Notes under the pieces: model-generated
Seen by the model: the letters and a program-made list of their open reading frames with translations, nothing else
Database searches by the model: none
Told to the model about the DNA's origin: nothing
Part shown: piece after piece, positions 1 to 13,532 of the stretch
Layout: the number at the start of each line of letters is the position of its first letter
Numbering within the stretch: position 1 is the first letter of the stretch
Program-made: the position numbers and the translations under genes
DNA from: Gemmatimonadota bacterium
Lineage (GTDB): Bacteria > JBHIER01 > G020348925
Length of the DNA stretch: 13,997 nt
Direction: 5' to 3'
Assembly: GCA_020348925.1 (NCBI GenBank)
Contig: CP070758.1
Location: 874,279-888,275 of the forward strand

Positions 1-3000
1 AAATTTCAAACTCAGTGGGTGTCTCCAGATGATTTTTCAAGTAAAAATGGATCTCCTCCGAAACTCCGGAATCGCCTCTGACTGTCCAGAAATTTTGGCA
101 GGCCACGTTGTTGTCATCCTCCGGCCAGCCCGTGGTGATGGAATCGTCGTCGGATTCCACTGTCACAAGATAGCTCCAATGCGGTTGTCCGAAGGTGTTC
201 ATCCCAGGCGGCGCGAACGGAAGCGGCCCGACGAGGACGGAATCGCCCGGCACAAGCACGTCCACGGTTTCGGAACCGATGTGTTGAAGGAAATCGTCCG
301 GAACATGGGCCACCGCGCACGGCGTCTGGTAGTAAAAATTTACGAGTACATTTGTGGCAACAGCTTCACCAATATTCTTAATTGATGCTCGTAACTCACC
401 AGCCCCCAATATAATGTGTGATCCCATCCAGTAGCGTACCGGCCGCGGCCAGTGGCAAATTTCGGGGTCAGGGGTACCCATGGAAAAGGCGATCGAGTAT
501 TGGCCGAAGCGGACCCGGTTGTGGCACTGAGAATAGGCGATCCGAAAATAGCCGCTCTCCCCCCAGGTAGTGTTCCAGCTGTTCTTGGCAATGAAGCACT
601 TTTTATTGTCGTCGTACCCGACAAGGGCGATGGCGTGGTTGCCCACCCAGGGTCCGAGAGTGTGACGGTAGATCCCGCTCTTGTAAAAGTAGAAATCAAA
701 AAATACCCGCATGGTGGTGAAGAGGGGCCCCTTGAGCAGGGCCGACTTCAGAGCCGTGACGCTTACGGGCACTTGTTGGGCCTGGTAGCTCCAGCCGCGG
801 ACCCTCTTGACCCTGCTGCCCCAGTCGGTGCACCGGTTGTTGCAGGGTGTGTCGCAGGCGCAGTACCTGAAACAGGGTTCGTCCGGAGTGCCGGTCGTCT
901 TCAGAAAGTCCGCCGTCTCGTCCGGATAGCCGCCGTCGCAGCCGTAGTTCGAATCGCTGCAGGAGACCATGAACTGTTCCGAGAGATCGAGCACACCTGA
1001 CGTTGAACCCGAGATTTTGAGCATCGACTCCAGCGCGGCCACCCCGGCAAAGGCCCAACAACTCCCGCACTGGCCCTGATCTTTGATGGGGCTGACGTAG
1101 TTCGTCCCTCTCACATTGCGCCAGTCCCAGGTGGTGGGCAGGTCCTCCGTCCACTGCGGCTTGAATTGTCCTCCTTCATCCTCGGGCGGAAAGAGCAGGC
1201 CGCACAGCTCGCACTTCTGGGAGGAGGATAGGTTTGCCGTGGGGTTGGTCCCGGCTGTCCAGCTGTCCGTCCAGCCGGAGTCGGAGATGGCCGACTGAAT
1301 CTCCGAGAGGCCGGGCTCGTCAAGGTGAAACCGGAAGGCGACACCACCGGTCGTCCGCTCGGACCCACCCCCATAAGAAATGTGTTCCCTGACGTGGAGC
1401 ACTCCCCCTAAGGTGCATCTCCCCCCGAGCGTGACGGTGACCCTCACCGGAGCACTCGCGTGAGGATCAAGAGGAATCGATGTCCCCTCAGGTGGGTCCA
1501 TGGTCACCTCCCACTCTTCGGGCAGTTGGGAGCGATCGACGATCAGTACGGCCTCAGCAGGGGTGTCCTCCGGGTTCTTCGCCAAAAAGTGGAGGGTCGG
1601 TGCCGGGTCGCTCTCCACAGATACATCCCAATGGCTCTTGCCGGCGACATTATTATCGTCCTCAGGCCAACCGTTGTCGACAGGATCTTCAGGACTTTCA
1701 ACGGCGGCCACAATCGTCCAGTACGGCTGCCCGAAACCGTTCGAGTAAGGCGGTGTCCAGGCGACGGGTCCGATCTCGACCGAATCGCCGGGGGCCAGGG
1801 TCGGAACAGGAGCCGAGCCGATGAACCGGAGGTCCGGGTCGAAGAAATATTGAGAGGCAGTCGGATCGGTGTAATAGAAATTGACCACCGCACTCTCGGT
1901 CGGCACTGTGCCCCTGTTGTTCACCTGACAATAGAGACCGTCCTCACCCTGCCAAATATGGTCGCCAATCCACCATTCATCGTAACGCGGCCAGTGACAG
2001 ATACTTGGGTCGACGATCAAGAGTGGCGAAAAACGGACCGAGACCGTGGCCATCCAATGGCCCCAGGGAATGACCACGTGTTTCTCCGTGCCGGGCCAGT
2101 TGTCGTGCACGATGGCCCAGTTCGTAAGGGGCAGAGGACCGCCATCGTCGGGGTCGTAGTTTCTGCAATAACCGACACCAGTGACGGCGTGGCCAACATC
2201 CTGGAGAGGATCCCACGTCTCCTCAGGATCGGTTGATCCGCCGGTTGAATCGCCCCACTCATAGAAATGAAGCGTATCGCCCAAGACGGAGTCGTACACG
2301 GCGATGCCGCTGTATATCGGGTTCCAGAAATTAAAACAGGCAATGACAGGATAACCGGAATCGATCTCCGCAGCATAGTAGCACCAGCCGAAGACGACCT
2401 CAGTGCTGTCGTCACACTCCCACTCGGTTTTATTGGAGTTTGGAGCGAAGGGGACAGGGTAGGTGTCGAAGATCGATCCACCCCATTCGGCGAAGTCCAC
2501 AAGGCCGGATCCGATATCCGGTGTCATCGTTCCGGAAATGCCGCTGTTGGACCGGGCCGGGCTGCCGGTATTGTTTGTGTCCATGAACCACCCTAATGAA
2601 TCGGAGGCCACATTCCGAGCCCAGTTGTTCTGCAGCCCGGGTACCGAGCCCCGGACATTGGCCCAGTAATCGACGATATTGACGGCCGCCGTCGGAGCAC
2701 ACCAGTTGCTCCTGCCGGAGGCTGGCGGCTGATGTTCATCAGGGACATTCGGTATGAGCTTACACACGGCCGCCGATGCTGTCGGATGAACCGAGACGAC
2801 GGTGTTCCAGTTGGGCCGGGGAATAGCAAGGTTTGTGCCTGTTGTGCTCCGGTTGTCGATGGCTGTGGGATCATAATTGTCACGCATCTGCTGATCGGAG
2901 CCCGGTGTATTCTGGGACACTATACCGCGGCTATACTGGCTTGAAGTCTCCCAGCGGCTGTTTCCCTGCAAATTTGAATGGGATAGGGACAGATGTTGGA

Positions 3001-3073
3001 GACCAAGAGCAAGTATGATGAAGATAGAGACATTGGTAATGATTGAGAAAATTCTGTCCTTCTTCACATCCAT
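1..3073 (-). CDS. Secreted protein with two cysteine peptidase domains, each followed by a CARDB-like module (C-terminus cut by window edge)
   Basis: The minus strand reads without a stop from 3073 to base 1, giving 1024 complete codons, so the 3' end lies outside the window. Domains seen: a Sec-type signal peptide (about residues 1-32, hydrophobic core IFIILALGL). A first C39/papain-like peptidase domain (about 100-345) with NWCAPTAA (Cys125), GHAVTGVGY (His295) and WAIVHDNW (Asp324 or Asn325). A CARDB-like beta module (358-482). A further beta-rich stretch (about 485-560). A propeptide-like segment (593-650, AISDSGWTDSW and LCGLLFPPED). A second, clear C1A papain domain (about 655-855) with QGQCGSCWAF (Gln666, Cys672), GNHAIALVGYDD (His813) and AKNSWNTTWG (Asn831). 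Then a second CARDB-like module (872-996). Both heads appear catalytically intact. It probably acts outside the cell in protein breakdown or maturation of surface proteins; the substrate is unknown. The start is ATG 3073, or GTG 3067, which sits 8 nt after GGAGG and is better spaced. A sorting domain beyond the left edge is expected but not seen. Confidence 0.9.
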   Translation of the reverse strand, partial: MDVKKDRIFSIITNVSIFIILALGLQHLSLSHSNLQGNSRWETSSQYSRGIVSQNTPGSDQQMRDNYDPTAIDNRSTTGTNLAIPRPNWNTVVSVHPTASAAVCKLIPNVPDEHQPPASGRSNWCAPTAAVNIVDYWANVRGSVPGLQNNWARNVASDSLGWFMDTNNTGSPARSNSGISGTMTPDIGSGLVDFAEWGGSIFDTYPVPFAPNSNKTEWECDDSTEVVFGWCYYAAEIDSGYPVIACFNFWNPIYSGIAVYDSVLGDTLHFYEWGDSTGGSTDPEETWDPLQDVGHAVTGVGYCRNYDPDDGGPLPLTNWAIVHDNWPGTEKHVVIPWGHWMATVSVRFSPLLIVDPSICHWPRYDEWWIGDHIWQGEDGLYCQVNNRGTVPTESAVVNFYYTDPTASQYFFDPDLRFIGSAPVPTLAPGDSVEIGPVAWTPPYSNGFGQPYWTIVAAVESPEDPVDNGWPEDDNNVAGKSHWDVSVESDPAPTLHFLAKNPEDTPAEAVLIVDRSQLPEEWEVTMDPPEGTSIPLDPHASAPVRVTVTLGGRCTLGGVLHVREHISYGGGSERTTGGVAFRFHLDEPGLSEIQSAISDSGWTDSWTAGTNPTANLSSSQKCELCGLLFPPEDEGGQFKPQWTEDLPTTWDWRNVRGTNYVSPIKDQGQCGSCWAFAGVAALESMLKISGSTSGVLDLSEQFMVSCSDSNYGCDGGYPDETADFLKTTGTPDEPCFRYCACDTPCNNRCTDWGSRVKRVRGWSYQAQQVPVSVTALKSALLKGPLFTTMRVFFDFYFYKSGIYRHTLGPWVGNHAIALVGYDDNKKCFIAKNSWNTTWGESGYFRIAYSQCHNRVRFGQYSIAFSMGTPDPEICHWPRPVRYWMGSHIILGAGELRASIKNIGEAVATNVLVNFYYQTPCAVAHVPDDFLQHIGSETVDVLVPGDSVLVGPLPFAPPGMNTFGQPHWSYLVTVESDDDSITTGWPEDDNNVACQNFWTVRGDSGVSEEIHFYLKNHLETPTEFEI
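86..460 (-). repeat. CARDB-like module, copy 2 (within the two-headed peptidase)
   Basis: Protein-level repeat covering residues 872-996, running from ICHWPR to GWPEDDNNVACQNFW, with VLVNFYYQTP and LVPGDSVLVGPLPF between. It follows the papain C1A domain and lies 514 residues after copy 1. Matched landmarks at identical spacing point to internal duplication or shared origin. Similarity continues past it (IHFYLKNHLETP against LHFLAKNPEDTP), so the next beta stretch of copy 1 probably also recurs beyond the left edge. Confidence 0.7.
1628..2002 (-). repeat. CARDB-like module, copy 1 (within the two-headed peptidase)
   Basis: Protein-level repeat covering residues 358-482, running from ICHWPR to GWPEDDNNVAGKSHW, with VVNFYYTDP and LAPGDSVEIGP between. 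It directly follows the first peptidase domain. The landmarks ICHWPR and GWPEDDNNVA are 110 residues apart, exactly as in copy 2. CARDB-type domains are beta-sandwich adhesion or spacer modules common in secreted bacterial proteins; that assignment is from sequence pattern only. Confidence 0.7.
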
Positions 3074-5174: not shown

Positions 5175-6047
5175 TCACTTCAGCAGCAGCATCTTCTTTG
5201 TATCTGTAAAATGTTTCACCGTCAACCTGTAATAATAGATGCCGCTGGCCATATCTGAGGCATCCCAGGTCACCCTGTAGGAGCCCGCTTCCTTCACTTC
5301 ATCGACCAATGTGTCCACCTCCTGGCCAATCAGATTATAAATTTTCAGGGTGGTATGGACAGGGGATCTGCCGTCGGCTACCTGATACCTGATATCTGTG
5401 GTCGGATTGAAAGGATTGGGATAGTTCTGGGAAAGGGAGTACTCGGACGGAATGTGGATCTGTCTTAGAAGTGACATGAATTTTTCATAATCCTCCCTCG
5501 AAAGGAGGGATTGAAGCGACGTGCAGAAGGTCATCACGTCCGGCGACAGGGCTGGTCTGCAGCCGTTGTCCGGGCACTCGGGCAAAATACCCAGGATGAC
5601 GTTGACGATGGACAGGGCATCCAGAACATCGACATCTCCATCGCCGTTGCAGTCGGCGCGTCCGAGCGGCTCTCCGATCAATGGGACGGTGCCCAGAATG
5701 TGATTCACGGCGGCCAGGACATCCAGCACGTCCACCCCTCCCAGACAGTCGATATTGCCCCGTTCGACCGCTGTTTGATCCGGATTAAAAAAGTTGGGAC
5801 AGTTGTCCTCGGAGCACGTGTTGGCGTCATATCCAGGATTCCCAAAACCATCATCATCTGTGTCCGTACACGCGTCACAAACGTCTCCGGTGCTGTCGCC
5901 GTCCGTATCCGATTGATCGGGATTGGCATCTCCCGGACAATTGTCGCAGACATCGCCGACGCCGTCGGCATCAACATCCTCCTGTCCGGGATTGGAATCA
6001 TCCGGGCAGTTGTCGTTGATGTCGGCTACGCCATCTCCGTCCAGATC
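5175..6047 (-). repeat. Shared C-terminal cassette (TSP3, dockerin-like, linker, sorting domain), copy in the 1482-residue protein
   Basis: Residues 1193-1482 (290 residues) correspond module by module to residues 902-1191 (also 290) of the neighbouring protein, with only small compensating indels: two extra residues after the dockerin and two fewer near the C-terminus. Shared landmarks are NPGQEDVD, GDVCDACTDTD, GNIDC.GGVDVLDVLA, LGRADCNGDG, CTSLQ.LLS and SQNYPNPFNPTTDIRYQ. The N-terminal parts of the two proteins are unrelated. Confidence 0.85.
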
Positions 6048-9000
6048 GCCGTATGCCCCCTCCGTGATGGTCAGGAATTGGTTCACTGCCACATCGGTCA
6101 GAATATCGATCATGCCGCTGGGCCATTCGACTTTGAGGGTGTCGATGGTTGCCGCATCGCCCAGACCAAAATGGGCGGTGAGACTGTTCTGGGCCGTGAA
6201 GCCCGTCTTTGCCGATATCTCCCGAAGCTGCCACGTATCGGCCTCACCAATATCAGCCTTGACCCTGACTTTGGCCCCTATGCCGGACCGGTTGGATGTG
6301 ATACCGATACATTTAACCTGGATCCAGTTGTTCGGATTTCCGTTGTTTTCGTACAGGGTGTTGTTGACCTCGTTGACATTGACCACGAAAAGATCCAGAT
6401 CCCCGTCGCGGTCATGGTCCGTCCAGGCGGCCGCTACCGATGGTTCGCTGTCGGATGAAATCGCTCCGCTTTCAATTCTTGTGAAGGTACCATCTCCGTT
6501 GTTGCGGTAGAGTCGATTGGCGTAGTCCTCATAGTAGTACATGCCGATGATGAAGAGATCGATATACCCGTCGTTGTTGTAATCGCCCCAGTATCCTCCG
6601 ACCCAGTAGCCGACATCGGTTGTGAGTCCCGGTCCGAATACCCGGACGAAATTTCCGTCACCGCTGTTGTTGTACAGGCGGACGGCATCGGGGTACCCTC
6701 CACCCGTGCAGAGATCGAGGTCACCGTCGTTGTCGTAATCGGCCCAGCTTCCGGCGTGGGTGTTCTCCGTAACGATGACGCTGTTGGTGACCTGGGTGAA
6801 CGTCCCGTCGCCATTATTTTCAAAGAAGAGGCTGTTCTGATCATTGCGCGTCCAGAACAGGTCGGCGTCGCCGTCGTTGTCATAGTCCGCCCAGGCGGCG
6901 GAATTGCCCTCGTCCCGGATGAGACCCACGGATACATTATCCACGATTCTGAAGCTGTCGACTTCATTCCGGTATAATCTGCTGTGGATTGTGGACGGCT
7001 CTCCCGGCGGCCGGTGATTGACGACGAACAGGTCCAGCAGGCCATCATTGTCATAGTCGACCCAGACAGGATCGGTGGACCATTCCACTCTGTCTCCGAG
7101 AGGTCCGGATGATGCTTTCGTAAAGGTGCCGTCGCCGTTGTTCGAGTAAAAGAGGTTCGTATCTTCAGGGCACGTCACATAGGCATCCAGATCGCCATCG
7201 TTGTCGAAATCTCCCCAGGTGGCGCCGGTTGCGCTGCCGTCGGTTGCAATATCTCCTTCGCTGACCCGGGTGTAGGTGCCGTCGCCGTTGTTTCTATAGA
7301 GCGCGTTGACCTCTCCGGTGCTGCCGAACAGATCGTTGGTGACGTACAGGTCCGGATAGCCGTCATCATCATAGTCGATCCAACAGATCCCGTGGGACCA
7401 GCCGCCGTCGGTGACGTGAGGACCTTCGGTGATCCGGGTGAACTGTTCCAAAGTCATTCTGGCCACAAAGCAGTCTTTCCCCTCACCGTTGTGTGATGTG
7501 TCATAGCTTCCCTGTACAGTCGGAAAATTCTCCGATTCCGTGTATCCGGTTATATAGACGTCGCCGTTTTCAGCAATCGTAATGCCCGGATCGCCGTCAT
7601 AGTTGGAGCCGCCGAGAAAGGTGGAATAGTCCAGCTCCGTAAGATCACTGTTGAACTTTCGGAGAATGACATCACTCCAGCCGCCGTTGTAACTTTCGTC
7701 ATAAGGATCTCCAGTGGTGGTGACATTTTGATCGAAAGCCGTACCGGCTAAGTAGACATTGTTCTCACTGTCGAAAGCTATGTCAGTCATGTAACTGAAG
7801 CTCTCGTCATCGGCCGTCAGGTAGGTCGAAGCCAACAGTGCCGACAAATCATTATTTAGCTTTGTGATAAAATACTCGTTCTCGCCGTTGTGGTCTTCAT
7901 CGTACACGTTTGGCGTCGTCGGGTATGCGACGGATTCAGTGTGACCGCCGACATAGATATTCCCGTCGTTGTCTACCCCCAGCAGTCCTCCGCCGTCAAA
8001 ATCCTCGGTGCCGATGAAGGTCGAACTGAGCAGTGTGGTGAGATCGTTGTCCAGCTTTGATACGCAGAAATCGAAATTGAGATAATCATACTGATGCGGC
8101 CCGTTAAAATCATTATCGTAGGCACCAGCGGTTGTGGGATAATTGTGAGATCCCGTGCTCCCTGCCAGAATCACATTTCCCATGGCGTCGATCCCGACAG
8201 CGGACCACTGTTCGTGGTAAACACCTCCCAGGAACGTCGATGCCATAAGAGAGGACAGATCGCTATTGAATTTCGAGACGAAAAAGTCGGTGTCACCTCC
8301 GTTGTAGTCCACATCGTACGCGTTTTGTGTTGTGGGGAAATTGTGAAAATCGGTGTATCCGGTTACAAAAACGTGACCGGCTCCGTCCAGTGCCATCGAG
8401 ACCATTCTTTCGGAGCCGTCACCGCCCAAAAGTGTCGAGGCGAGCAGCGCGGTAAGAGAATTATCGAATTTTGAAATGAACACGTCCCATTGACCGTTTC
8501 TGATTCTGTCGTAGGCGTTGTCCTGCGTCGGGAAATCCGGTGAATTCGTACAACCTATGAGATAGACATTGTTATGATCATCGAGTACCATTTTCGGCTC
8601 TTCCTCAGCGTAGCTCCCGCCAAAAAATGTCGCGGCCAGAAGGGTCGTGAGGTCGCTGTTCATCTTTGCCACGAATATATCGGTTTGACCGCAGGTCTGA
8701 CATTCACACGATCCAACGGTTGAGGGGAACTCCGCGGAGGTGGTCATTCCTGCGACAAAAACATTGCCGGAGGTATCGAGGCATATGTCAACAGCACCAC
8801 TGTACTCCCAGCCCTCAGTACCACTCCCCCCCAGAAATGTCGAGGCCAGAAGTGGATCAATGGTGAGAGGATACCTCCGGTCATAATCACCGACGCGAAA
8901 ACCGTATTCATGATCAGTCACCGTGTAGACCACATCGACAGAGATTCGTTCGCCGTCTCTTTCCTGAAAGGCCACCGGCACGGATAAGGCAACACGGCCT

Positions 9001-9623
9001 GCCTCGGTCATGACCTCGAGCTCCTCGGCCCGGTTTACTCTCAAGGCAATGGCACCGTCAACCCTGACTCGAATATCCTCAGGTTCGGCTCCAGGATTTA
9101 CGATGAAGAGCTTTTCGACGTTCCTACCGTGGGCTTTGAGTTTCAGCGCGATCCCCTCATACACTTCGCCGAGAGATACATGATCGTATGTCGCAATATC
9201 GCTTCTCCACCATGTAGGGTCCGTCCCTTTGAACACGTTGACTCTGCAGTCGGTATGTCCCTCTCCAACTATTTCACCCACTGTTCCCCCGAGGAACTTT
9301 TCTTTCAGAACGAACATCCCTGTCGGAGCATCGTCATCATGGACAGGAAGAGCATAGATGATCTCTCCGGATTTCGTCACAGATGCCGTTCCTCCAAAAG
9401 TTCGAGCGTAATACCTTACGTTCTCATCAACCTGTCCTTCGTTGGCGATGAAGGGTATGGCCGGATGCGCTATCCGGGCTGCACCATGCGATGCGCAAGT
9501 CATTGTCTTGTTGTCACGTGAGAGCTGCCCGTTGATAGCCATCGGCAGCAAAGAGAGTATGACCAGCAATACTCCTGTTTTCTTCAGATTGGTCCCGAAA
9601 AAATTTGATCCCATTGTCGTCAT
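5175..9623 (-). CDS. Giant exported double beta-propeller protein (DUF7948, SBBP, VCBS, UnbV, TSP3, dockerin-like, sorting domain)
   Basis: 1482 residues. Signal peptide (about 1-33, hydrophobic VLLVILSLLPMAI). DUF7948-like domain (about 50-256, opening PFIANEGQVDENVRYYART). Seven SBBP repeats (258-725), each of the type LLASTFLGG...GNVYVTGYT...FPTT.NAYD...NGG.D.FVSKFNSDL. Seven VCBS/FG-GAP calcium-binding repeats (about 728-1090), each with D-Y-D-N-D-G-D-L-D-L-F-V and LYRNNGDGTFT. An ASPIC/UnbV domain (1100-1188). TSP3 repeats (1193-1285). A dockerin-like pair (1289-1345). A Cys-bearing helical linker (1364-1395). A sorting domain (1396-1482, NYPNPFNP). Two seven-repeat stretches fit two tandem propellers. 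It is probably a calcium-rich cell-surface or extracellular adhesion or scaffold protein; no catalytic motif was seen. The ATG at 9623 has GGGAG 8 nt upstream. A terminator follows, so the gene is likely monocistronic. Confidence 0.92.
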   Translation of the reverse strand: MTTMGSNFFGTNLKKTGVLLVILSLLPMAINGQLSRDNKTMTCASHGAARIAHPAIPFIANEGQVDENVRYYARTFGGTASVTKSGEIIYALPVHDDDAPTGMFVLKEKFLGGTVGEIVGEGHTDCRVNVFKGTDPTWWRSDIATYDHVSLGEVYEGIALKLKAHGRNVEKLFIVNPGAEPEDIRVRVDGAIALRVNRAEELEVMTEAGRVALSVPVAFQERDGERISVDVVYTVTDHEYGFRVGDYDRRYPLTIDPLLASTFLGGSGTEGWEYSGAVDICLDTSGNVFVAGMTTSAEFPSTVGSCECQTCGQTDIFVAKMNSDLTTLLAATFFGGSYAEEEPKMVLDDHNNVYLIGCTNSPDFPTQDNAYDRIRNGQWDVFISKFDNSLTALLASTLLGGDGSERMVSMALDGAGHVFVTGYTDFHNFPTTQNAYDVDYNGGDTDFFVSKFNSDLSSLMASTFLGGVYHEQWSAVGIDAMGNVILAGSTGSHNYPTTAGAYDNDFNGPHQYDYLNFDFCVSKLDNDLTTLLSSTFIGTEDFDGGGLLGVDNDGNIYVGGHTESVAYPTTPNVYDEDHNGENEYFITKLNNDLSALLASTYLTADDESFSYMTDIAFDSENNVYLAGTAFDQNVTTTGDPYDESYNGGWSDVILRKFNSDLTELDYSTFLGGSNYDGDPGITIAENGDVYITGYTESENFPTVQGSYDTSHNGEGKDCFVARMTLEQFTRITEGPHVTDGGWSHGICWIDYDDDGYPDLYVTNDLFGSTGEVNALYRNNGDGTYTRVSEGDIATDGSATGATWGDFDNDGDLDAYVTCPEDTNLFYSNNGDGTFTKASSGPLGDRVEWSTDPVWVDYDNDGLLDLFVVNHRPPGEPSTIHSRLYRNEVDSFRIVDNVSVGLIRDEGNSAAWADYDNDGDADLFWTRNDQNSLFFENNGDGTFTQVTNSVIVTENTHAGSWADYDNDGDLDLCTGGGYPDAVRLYNNSGDGNFVRVFGPGLTTDVGYWVGGYWGDYNNDGYIDLFIIGMYYYEDYANRLYRNNGDGTFTRIESGAISSDSEPSVAAAWTDHDRDGDLDLFVVNVNEVNNTLYENNGNPNNWIQVKCIGITSNRSGIGAKVRVKADIGEADTWQLREISAKTGFTAQNSLTAHFGLGDAATIDTLKVEWPSGMIDILTDVAVNQFLTITEGAYGDLDGDGVADINDNCPDDSNPGQEDVDADGVGDVCDNCPGDANPDQSDTDGDSTGDVCDACTDTDDDGFGNPGYDANTCSEDNCPNFFNPDQTAVERGNIDCLGGVDVLDVLAAVNHILGTVPLIGEPLGRADCNGDGDVDVLDALSIVNVILGILPECPDNGCRPALSPDVMTFCTSLQSLLSREDYEKFMSLLRQIHIPSEYSLSQNYPNPFNPTTDIRYQVADGRSPVHTTLKIYNLIGQEVDTLVDEVKEAGSYRVTWDASDMASGIYYYRLTVKHFTDTKKMLLLK

Positions 9624-9759: not shown

Positions 9760-10632
9760 TTATTTCAGAAGCACTAGTGATCTGGTTTGAGACCATTGGC
9801 CGTAGTTCACCGTCATCTGGTAAAAATAGATACCGCTCGTACTATCAGAGGCGTCCCAGGTTACGGTATAATATCCCGGCTCCTGTACCTCATCGACCAG
9901 TGTTTGCACCTCCTGCCCGAGTAAATTGTAAATTTTCAAAGTGGTGTGAACGGGCGATGTACCGCCTGCTATCTGATATCGAATATCTGTTGTTGGGTTG
10001 AAGGGGTTGGGGTAGTTCTGGGAGAGCTGGTACTCGGCCGGGACCTGAGCCCCTTTGATGAGCTCCATGAACCGCGCAAAGTTCTCCGACGAAAGGAGGG
10101 GCTGCAGCGACGTGCAGTAGCGAACCACCTCAGGGTTCACGACCGGTCTGAAGTCAGGGCTGCACTCGCCGATACCCAAGATGACGTTTATGATACCCAG
10201 GGCGTCCAGGATATCGACGCCGCCGTCTCCGTTGCAGTCGGCTCTGCCCAGGGATCCGCCGACAAGAGTGCTCGTGCCCAATATATGATTGATGACGGCC
10301 AGAACATCCAGCACGTCGACACCGCCGGCGCAGTCGATATTGCCTTTTTCGACGGGATCTTGGTCCGGATTGGAGACGTTGGGGCAGTTATCCTCCTGGC
10401 AGGTGTTGGCCGGATACCCCGGGTTGCCGTAGCCGTCACCGTCCGTGTCCGTGCACGCATCGCAGACGTCACCGGTGCCGTCGCCGTCAGTGTCGATTTG
10501 ATCCGGATTGACATGGTCAGGACAGTTGTCGCAGGCATCGCCGAGACCGTCACCATCGACATCCTCCTGGCCGGGATTGTAATTGTTGGGGCAGTTGTCC
10601 TCGGCATCGAGGATGCCGTCCTCGTCCCGGTC
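9760..10632 (-). repeat. Shared C-terminal cassette, copy in the PfpI-propeller protein
   Basis: Residues 902-1191 match the C-terminal 290 residues of the neighbouring 1482-residue protein in order and content (TSP3, dockerin-like pair, helical linker, sorting domain). Within the sorting domain this copy is mosaic. Its TTDIRYQ...SPVHTTLKIYNL.GQEV.TLVDEV part resembles the 1482-residue protein, while its NFARFMELIKG...NPFNP part and its GQWSQTRS.VLLK end resemble the gene at the right edge. Confidence 0.85.
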
Positions 10633-13335
10633 CACCGAGGCCTGATTCAGATGAATGCCCTCCCGCCAGGCGGCGTTGACGAGGGTCCCATCGTTCTCAT
10701 TGCCGGAATTATCGAGTATCGCCCCGCCGTTGCCTTCGTTCATCTTCCAGTAGCCCACGAGCCCGGGCTCGTCTCCCAGCAGGTAGTACTCCATATTGTC
10801 GGCAATTTCTTGATCGGTCCGGACAACGTTCCACATGCGGACTTCGTCGATGAGGCCGTCGAAGGTCCAGCCGAGGTCAGGTGAGTTGCCGATGAGCAGG
10901 TCGTAGTCGCTGTGGTCCCTGATGCCCCCTGAGGGTGGGACGGTGTGGCTGACGGTCTGTTCAACGCCGTTGATGTATACGGTGACATCGTCCTGGCCGT
11001 TGTACGTGACGGCAATATGCTGCCACTCGTCCAGTGCCATGGAGTTTTCCGGGGTGTTGGAATAGCTTGCTGTTCCGTTGGAGTGGATACACTGTAAAAG
11101 GAAACTGTGCGGGTTATAGGAGAGATAGGAATCGATCAGATAGAGGGAGATATTTCTCTTGTCGACGATGCGGCCGAGCCCGAATTGGGGGAATCCCCAG
11201 CCGTAGGGATTGATCCAGGCTTCGATGGTAAATTCCCCGGTGAGATGCAACTCCGGCGTGGCGGCACAGGTGGCGTGACTGCCCGGTGCCTCGAACAGAA
11301 GGGCGCTCTCGCCGGCAAAGACGTGGACGTAATCGTCGAGGATGCGCGTCTCCGGATCGCCGCCTCTGGACACGAGGAGTCTCACAGAGTAAATCCCCGG
11401 TTCGTCGTAGGTCCACGTTGGATGTTGTTCCTCGGAATCGATGACACCGTCGTTGTCGAAATCCCATTGCCAGGACGTGGCGTTTCCAGTGGATTGGTCT
11501 GTGAAGTGGACTTGGAGCGGGGCGTGGCCGGTAGGGGGGTCGGCCGCGAACTGGGCGTAGAGGCTCGAGACTTTGAGGAGCCAGAGATCGTACCGACCGG
11601 CACCGTAAGAGTCGGTGTGGCCGGTTATGACGTAGTTCCCATCGCTTGTTTTACAGACTGCGCTCGGCCAGTCGGAACCGGAACCGCCGAACTCTTTCGT
11701 CCAAATTTCATTTCCGTCGGCGTCCAATCTGATCAACCGGGCATCATTTCTCCAGGTGTCAAAGTTTTTTATCGATCCGCAGGCAAGGTACCCGCCGTCG
11801 TCCGTCTCGCAGAGTGATGTCCCGCGATCGTGCAATGCCTCGCCGAAATTACTCCGCCACACCTCGTTTCCCTGAGCGTCGGTTTTTATGACCAGCCAGT
11901 TCAGCGGGGTGAAAACGTTGCTCTCCCCATTGAGCAGATAGCCGCCGTCCCCTGTCTGGCAGACTGAAAGACCCCAGTCGAAGGGAAACGCGCCCCCACC
12001 CCCAAATGTACTCCACCATGCCTCGTTTCCCTCAGCGTCGGTTTTGATGAGATAGTAGTCCTGATTCGTTGAAGTTGAGAGGGTCGCTCCGACAATAATA
12101 AGCCCCCCGTCGTCGGTCGTACGGACCAGTCTTCCCGCGTCCGAGCGATTCCCACCGAATACTCTTGTCCACAGCGTATCACCGTCGGAATTCGTTTTGA
12201 TGAGCCAGACATCGCTTTCACCTGCCCCGAAAGATTCGGTATATCCGCAGATGATGTACGTGCCATCGCTCATCTCACAGGCGGATCGTCCGATGTCTTC
12301 TTCCGGGCCCCCGAAGGTCTTCGTCCACAGCTCGTCTCCGTTCGAGTCGGTCTTGATGAGGTACACATCATTCAGGCCTTGTCCGAAGGATGTGGTGGAG
12401 CCTGTCAGGAGATAACCGCCGTCGCTCGTCTGGCACGCCGAATATCCGTACTCCCAGCCGGGGCCGCCGAAGCTGCGCGACCATTGCTCGTCTCCCTGGG
12501 AGTCCGTCTTTACGAGATATATGTCGGAGGCACCTGCACCGAACGAATAGGTATAGCCGCATATGATGAAGCCCCCGTCGTCGGTCTCCTGGACGGACCT
12601 GCCTCCCTCGGAATCAGGGCCGCCGAATGTTTTGGCCCAGATGGCTGTATCTTCATTGATGATTCGGGAAATTTTGGATGAGGAGATATCCGTTTTCGTT
12701 TTGGTTCCTCCGCCACTGTTCCGTGTCGTGGCCAGAGCAGTGGCTATGGCCTGACTGTTGTGATAGTGGTACGTTTGACCTCGTACACCGGTCACGATAT
12801 TTCCGTCAATGACCGGCGGGTGATCACTTCCCACATAATTCGCCCCTGCATTCTGATATTGGTTCGCGTATTGCCCTGTGCCGACGATGTCCACATCATT
12901 CAAACGATCGGCAGCAGCCAACACGAGAGGTCCTGAACACATCGTGTAGACGACCAGGCCCGAATCAACGGCCGCTGTCACGAGGTCCATGGCCTCCTGA
13001 CTTCCCAAGACATCGGCCCACGGGTTGCCGGCCCGCCAGCTTATGGGTGGTAATAACAATATATCGTACTCTGTGATATCCGTGATCTCTGAAATAAGCC
13101 TGTCGATAGAGATGGTTGGAAGCCCTCCAAAGAGGGGACAGGGCGGTATGGTTTCTGAAATCCCTGTCAGAGTGATATTCCAGCCGTATGCTTCGAGATC
13201 ATCCCATATGAAAAGAACGTTCGGTCCATAGTTGTTCGCCATGAACACCAAAACATTGATGTCTTCGGCCATTCCAGTGCGGACTCCGGCGAGCGCGAAA
13301 ACGAAACAGACGATGACTATGAGCACCTTCTTCAT
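9760..13335 (-). CDS. Exported DJ-1/PfpI-like domain fused to propeller, PKD, LamG, TSP3, dockerin-like and sorting domains
   Basis: 1191 residues. Signal peptide MKKVLIVIVCFVFALAG (about 1-25, cleavage near GMA-ED). DJ-1/PfpI-like domain (about 27-190) with the nucleophile-elbow motif VYTMCSGPLVLAAADRL (Cys133) and GNIVTGVRG. A linker. Seven propeller repeats (233-592) of the type DGGY..TG.T.SFGAG..D.YLIKTDS.GDELWTKTFGG. A PKD domain (593-672, WQWDFDNDGVIDSEEQHPTWTY). A LamG/concanavalin-like jelly roll (about 677-896, FTIEAWINPYGWG, DEWQHIAVTYNG, IDEVRMWNVVRT, GYWKMNEGNGG). TSP3 repeats (901-993). A dockerin-like pair (998-1055). A helical linker (1071-1102). A sorting domain (1104-1191). 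It is probably surface-attached or secreted; the reaction of the PfpI-like head is unknown. The start at 13335 is preferred over in-frame ATGs at 13416 and 13395 because AAAGGAGGAG lies 7 nt upstream and the signal peptide starts there. A terminator follows the gene. Confidence 0.92.
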   Translation of the reverse strand: MKKVLIVIVCFVFALAGVRTGMAEDINVLVFMANNYGPNVLFIWDDLEAYGWNITLTGISETIPPCPLFGGLPTISIDRLISEITDITEYDILLLPPISWRAGNPWADVLGSQEAMDLVTAAVDSGLVVYTMCSGPLVLAAADRLNDVDIVGTGQYANQYQNAGANYVGSDHPPVIDGNIVTGVRGQTYHYHNSQAIATALATTRNSGGGTKTKTDISSSKISRIINEDTAIWAKTFGGPDSEGGRSVQETDDGGFIICGYTYSFGAGASDIYLVKTDSQGDEQWSRSFGGPGWEYGYSACQTSDGGYLLTGSTTSFGQGLNDVYLIKTDSNGDELWTKTFGGPEEDIGRSACEMSDGTYIICGYTESFGAGESDVWLIKTNSDGDTLWTRVFGGNRSDAGRLVRTTDDGGLIIVGATLSTSTNQDYYLIKTDAEGNEAWWSTFGGGGAFPFDWGLSVCQTGDGGYLLNGESNVFTPLNWLVIKTDAQGNEVWRSNFGEALHDRGTSLCETDDGGYLACGSIKNFDTWRNDARLIRLDADGNEIWTKEFGGSGSDWPSAVCKTSDGNYVITGHTDSYGAGRYDLWLLKVSSLYAQFAADPPTGHAPLQVHFTDQSTGNATSWQWDFDNDGVIDSEEQHPTWTYDEPGIYSVRLLVSRGGDPETRILDDYVHVFAGESALLFEAPGSHATCAATPELHLTGEFTIEAWINPYGWGFPQFGLGRIVDKRNISLYLIDSYLSYNPHSFLLQCIHSNGTASYSNTPENSMALDEWQHIAVTYNGQDDVTVYINGVEQTVSHTVPPSGGIRDHSDYDLLIGNSPDLGWTFDGLIDEVRMWNVVRTDQEIADNMEYYLLGDEPGLVGYWKMNEGNGGAILDNSGNENDGTLVNAAWREGIHLNQASVDRDEDGILDAEDNCPNNYNPGQEDVDGDGLGDACDNCPDHVNPDQIDTDGDGTGDVCDACTDTDGDGYGNPGYPANTCQEDNCPNVSNPDQDPVEKGNIDCAGGVDVLDVLAVINHILGTSTLVGGSLGRADCNGDGGVDILDALGIINVILGIGECSPDFRPVVNPEVVRYCTSLQPLLSSENFARFMELIKGAQVPAEYQLSQNYPNPFNPTTDIRYQIAGGTSPVHTTLKIYNLLGQEVQTLVDEVQEPGYYTVTWDASDSTSGIYFYQMTVNYGQWSQTRSLVLLK
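9995..10083. repeat. Exact 89-bp direct repeat, copy 1
   Basis: Bases 9995-10083 are identical to 13909-13997. They encode residues 1085-1114 of the PfpI-propeller protein, from NFARFMELIKG through SQNYPNPFNP. Base 9994 already differs from 13908. At the other end the match is cut by the window edge, so the true repeat may be longer. Confidence 0.95.
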
Positions 13336-13350
13336 TGGAACTCCTCCTTT
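13328..13350 (-). promoter_or_regulatory. Strong ribosome binding site fixing the start of the PfpI-propeller gene
   Basis: AAAGGAGGAG is followed 7 nt after GGAGG by the ATG at 13335. This is the best Shine-Dalgarno match in the window. It rules against the longer in-frame start at 13416, which would put a charged 27-residue extension before the signal peptide. Confidence 0.8.
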
Positions 13351-13532
13351 TGTTGATGAATGTTTCAGGCACAATCGTTTTGGGGTGTTGTTCATTTTGA
13401 GTCCCGATTCTCCCAATCGTTGTTCATTAGATCATGGTTCTATGATTTTTGTTTCACTCGTGGCGGACGGTTGTGGCATTCGTTCGACGCGTGCCGCAAA
13501 CTTCCTCCCTTGCGGTGCACTTGATATTGACT

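Follow-up and report, generated by a model that had tools for sequence, protein, structure and literature searches.

Two papain-fold heads of different subfamilies in one predicted exported protein of a Gemmatimonadota bacterium

Introduction

Gingipains are surface proteases exported by the type IX system, and combine one C25 head with Ig-like modules and a C-terminal sorting domain. Chains that carry several protease domains are described in humans, where polyserase-1 is processed into individual domains, polyserase-2 and -3 remain undivided, and not every domain is active (PMC1435904). For the papain fold, a survey of papain evolution mentions numerous multidomain C1A proteins in prokaryotes and leaves them unanalysed (PMC10380794), and the Peptidase_C39_2 family is described as single-domain (PMC10318531). 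Among open-licence papers we found no literature on bacterial chains with two papain-like heads.

A sequence-only reading of a 13,997-nucleotide stretch of a Gemmatimonadota genome (the window) had claimed that one exported chain carries two different cysteine peptidase heads. Our analysis supports two different papain-fold heads, for the C1A head by profile and for head 1 by profile and structure model. The two-headed layout is real and probably rare; it puts known kinds of parts together in a new way and does not amount to a new kind of machine.

Results

The features of the locus, in the order in which they occur along the chain, are as follows (residues are numbered from M1 at 3073).

2..3073, minus strand: open frame of the two-headed protein, 1,024 codons, interrupted at base 2, where the window ends next to an assembly gap
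2996..3052, minus strand: N-terminal hydrophobic segment (residues 8-26), hydropathy 2.1, after K4, K5 and R7
2039..2764, minus strand: head 1, C39_2-like papain fold (residues 104-345), from PF13529, fold model and conserved residues
1553..2011, minus strand: CARDB-like module A (residues 355-507), from its identity to module B; CARDB 15.2 bits, under the cut-off
1433..1597, minus strand: NEW3/NPCBM_assoc-like stretch (residues 493-547), PF10633 at 16-18.8 bits, under the cut-off of 24.4
1142..1309, minus strand: putative internal C1A propeptide with linker (residues 589-644), motif W.AG......L......CG
527..1141, minus strand: head 2, C1A papain (residues 645-849), from PF00112 with Gln666, Cys672, His813 and Asn831
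11..469, minus strand: CARDB-like module B (residues 869-1021), from its identity to module A

The chain thus runs from the hydrophobic segment through head 1, module A with the NEW3-like stretch, the putative propeptide and the C1A head to module B, after which a putative type IX-type sorting domain follows across the assembly gap.

Direct reading of the minus strand confirmed that the frame is open, with no stop codon from 3073 to base 2. The gene lacks a stop inside the window because an assembly gap of 100 N lies just outside it, at its left edge. Beyond the gap, on the same strand, is the type IX-type sorting domain, which ends in a stop codon; the two-headed gene is therefore incomplete in this assembly. 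On the sequence remaining beyond the gap the Por_Secre_tail profile scored 25.9 bits, under its cut-off of 27, and the host genome encodes a match to SprA_N of the type IX translocon (1e-44). The sorting domain probably belongs to the two-headed chain, the join falling in the gap. At the other end, translation may start at a GTG at residue 3 (3067) instead of the ATG at 3073, since a GGAGG is better spaced for the former, and residues 8-26 are predicted to form a signal peptide or anchor. Two further proteins are encoded on the same strand of the window, one (5175-9623) with DUF7948, SBBP, FG-GAP, ASPIC/UnbV, dockerin and sorting domains, the other (9760-13416) large and of exported type, in which a DJ-1/PfpI domain is followed by PKD, LamG-like, TSP3, dockerin and sorting domains.

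The host genome consists of one 5.04 Mb scaffold from a lineage that is barely sampled, and it could be argued that the two heads were joined merely through assembly or binning error. The contig is scaffolded with N gaps, and third-position GC is 0.80 in the propeptide-C1A part (window 494-1309, minus strand), higher than the 0.60-0.67 measured elsewhere in the gene. However, the part of the frame within the window contains no N and stays open over all its 1,024 codons, and the modules that flank the C1A head are homologous to each other. We regard such an error as very improbable. The propeptide-C1A part might have arrived as a separate cassette.

Head 2 is, by sequence, a clear C1A papain. 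Peptidase_C1 (PF00112) matched it at 3e-50 (171.7 bits, cut-off 20.7), and its closest relative by sequence among solved structures is dipeptidyl peptidase I (2.5e-41). The residues named for it beforehand were all found in place and within C1A family motifs, namely the oxyanion Gln666 and catalytic Cys672 (QGQCGSCWAF), His813 (NHAIALVGY) and Asn831 (FIAKNSW). Immediately before this head, residues 589-644 could be aligned with the region preceding the catalytic domain of 15 other C1A proteins from bacteria, of which three are encoded in the host genome itself; the motif shared with them reads roughly L..I..AI...GA.W.AG......L..EE...L.G. In most of the 15 the aligned segment directly follows the signal peptide; in one (L020) it lies deeper in the chain. 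No Pfam propeptide model, the cathepsin B-type included, matched the region, and the best PDB match of a profile built from it was Crammer, a cathepsin-propeptide-like inhibitor, at a marginal E of 0.025. We infer that residues 589-644 are a C1A propeptide carried into mid-chain.

Head 1 is weak by sequence. Peptidase_C39_2 (PF13529) matched the whole chain at 2e-6 with 28.6 bits (cut-off 24), a score that in part reflects weak similarity elsewhere in the chain; on head 1 alone it was 22.3 bits, just below the cut-off. A search of PDB sequences with head 1 alone returned only chance antibody matches, and an NCBIfam search gave no match. The residues named beforehand for this head were likewise in place, with Cys125 in NWCAPT, His295 in GHAVTG and Asp324/Asn325 in IVHDNW; together with Gln115, the key residues occur in the order Gln115, Cys125, His295, Asp324.

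An AlphaFold model of head 1 built from eight sequences reached a mean pLDDT of 69 and a pTM of 0.77, and replaced an earlier model from four sequences (pLDDT 48). In it Cys125 stands at the start of the first long helix and His295 at the start of a strand, and Asp324 comes after the next strand. Foldseek matched the model to cathepsins with E down to 1e-4, and VIA-align superposed it on cathepsin H with a Z of 13.2 (3.5 angstrom, 178 residues). No C39 entry was among the 50 fold matches listed for this second model, which excludes nothing. At the level of fold and topology, the model gives neither a non-peptidase fold nor a wide separation of Cys125 and His295; Cys, His and Asp occupy the helix and strand positions that are canonical for papain. 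From profile and model, head 1 is best described as a papain-fold domain, divergent and C39_2-like.

The family to which head 1 belongs is small, with ten distinct members found, this one included. Searches of genome contigs returned relatives in a TA06 bacterium, an Uhrbacteria bacterium and a Calditrichaeota bacterium; among 386 compared genomes the TA06 relative was found again together with two others (G136 and G100), and phylum-wide searches for head 1 covered only 1, 4, 1 and 8 genomes, the host's own phylum being represented by the host genome alone. No C1A head shares a frame with any of the five bacterial relatives, judging from translations and, for two of them, also from Pfam. More distant members are located on viral contigs. 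Phage records gave no match, and plasmid records gave partial matches only, none with both heads. Serine replaces cysteine, with Gln, His and Asp kept, in L066 (frame from about base 196), L016:2744-3511 and L050:3427-4203. The first of these, on a viral contig, has an M43 metallopeptidase domain in the same frame, and head 1 is therefore joined to a second peptidase elsewhere too.

In all ten members Gln, His and Asp are kept, and it is Asp324, not Asn325, that represents the invariant third residue. The catalytic position is Cys in seven (this chain and three viral sequences among them) and Ser in three, and because of this replacement the peptidase activity of head 1 is uncertain. The earlier description of both heads as apparently active accordingly stands as a suggestion from their sequences. 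Head 1 could instead be a papain-fold domain that is no longer, or never was, a protease; its role would then be ligand binding or guidance of the C1A head, leaving only one head that cuts. Such a role would fit the three Ser-type members, a GWFM(D/N)TN motif whose conservation is about equal to that of the catalytic residues, and the existence of papain-fold proteins without a catalytic Cys, one of which (2b1n) matches the head-1 model. A dead domain would, however, be expected to lose its residues, whereas Gln, His and Asp are retained throughout the family and Cys in most of it. We therefore consider a non-protease head 1 a serious alternative, but a somewhat unlikely one.

The two CARDB-like modules are 45% identical over 153 residues without gaps, and one copy stands behind each head, which gives the chain the look of a repeated "head + module" unit. 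CARDB-like modules were also seen behind other heads, in G272 (L051:2230-5238) with a C39_2-like domain and a CBM, and in G237 (L052:2982-5198), where the head has HGG and Cys motifs and no profile match.

The genomes compared contained no second chain with both heads, although this was a limited test. Across 51 genomes, 49 of which have C1A proteins, no other frame combined a C1A with a separate C39_2 domain; the C1A and C39_2 lists were compared by eye, and the sole shared frames were C1A domains matching both profiles. This result should be interpreted with some caution since the C39_2 profile misses the present head 1 at the threshold used, which makes it weak evidence. The layout had been called unusual from the sequence. 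Within the genomes searched that description is upheld, as is the two-head layout itself, but it does not extend to multi-protease chains in general, which are known.

Discussion

We hypothesize, with a probability of roughly 0.55, that the gene encodes a protease located outside the cell or on its surface, whose two papain-fold heads come from different subfamilies. According to this hypothesis the chain would leave the cell by Sec and then by the type IX system, for which the genome has an SprA translocon gene. The internal propeptide would keep the C1A head in zymogen form until this head cuts the chain near residues 625-644 and so becomes active. Head 1 would thereby come free together with module A, while the C1A head and module B would stay joined to the sorting domain. 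The two heads would then degrade different extracellular substrates, with the CARDB-like modules acting as stalks or binding parts. The chain would most likely have arisen when two "head + CARDB module" units were joined and the second brought its propeptide along.

Several observations support this hypothesis: the profiles of both heads, the fold of head 1, the duplicated module and the CARDB-like region found with other heads, as well as the propeptide alignment, the marginal Crammer match, the sorting domain after the gap and SprA_N. It is weakened by the Ser that replaces the head-1 Cys in part of the family, by a propeptide that matches no Pfam propeptide model, and by the gap, in which the C-terminal join would fall.

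Since the putative propeptide lies inside the chain and such segments are usually removed, self-activation of the C1A head would probably separate the two heads. It had been suggested that one head could process the other. This is possible, but with an internal C1A propeptide self-activation is the simpler route to cleavage. Alternatively, both heads could be active and remain joined as one two-site enzyme, the propeptide being displaced, or cut without separation. Polyserase-2 and -3 do keep their protease domains on one chain (PMC1435904), and the propeptide cut proposed here is read from sequence. On the other hand, papain-family zymogens normally lose the propeptide by cutting (PMC10380794), and here the chain would break; we find a permanently joined enzyme quite improbable. 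A bolder proposal, unlikely in our view, is that head 1 defines a papain-fold family not described before, whose nucleophile has changed several times between Cys and Ser against a constant set of Gln, His and Asp; the present chain would combine it with a C1A head that activates itself, giving a polyprotein of two specificities.

If the preferred reading of a self-activating, two-headed surface protease is true, bacteria can put together surface proteases from "peptidase head + accessory module" units that are interchangeable, and a single gene can supply two specificities and possibly a built-in separation step. The repeated Cys-to-Ser change in the head-1 family offers a direct test of whether the papain fold works with serine or is reused for binding.

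In conclusion, the protein can be set beside several known systems. It resembles multidomain bacterial C1A proteins (PF00112) in the catalytic domain, the Gln, Cys, His and Asn motifs, and also in a putative propeptide just before the domain and in predicted export, but here propeptide and C1A domain stand mid-chain, behind another papain-fold head. Head 1 shares with Peptidase_C39_2 (PF13529) and the C39-like peptidase structure 3erv a borderline profile match, the papain fold and the Gln-Cys-His-Asp order; it is larger, however, with a long conserved insertion that contains GWFM(D/N)TN, and some of its relatives have Ser for Cys. As in human polyserases 1-3, several protease domains occupy one secreted or membrane chain, yet those are serine proteases of one family, whereas here two papain-fold subfamilies are joined in a bacterium. 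With gingipains the protein has in common a protease head, Ig-like modules and, probably, a C-terminal sorting domain, but it carries two papain-fold heads in place of one C25 head.
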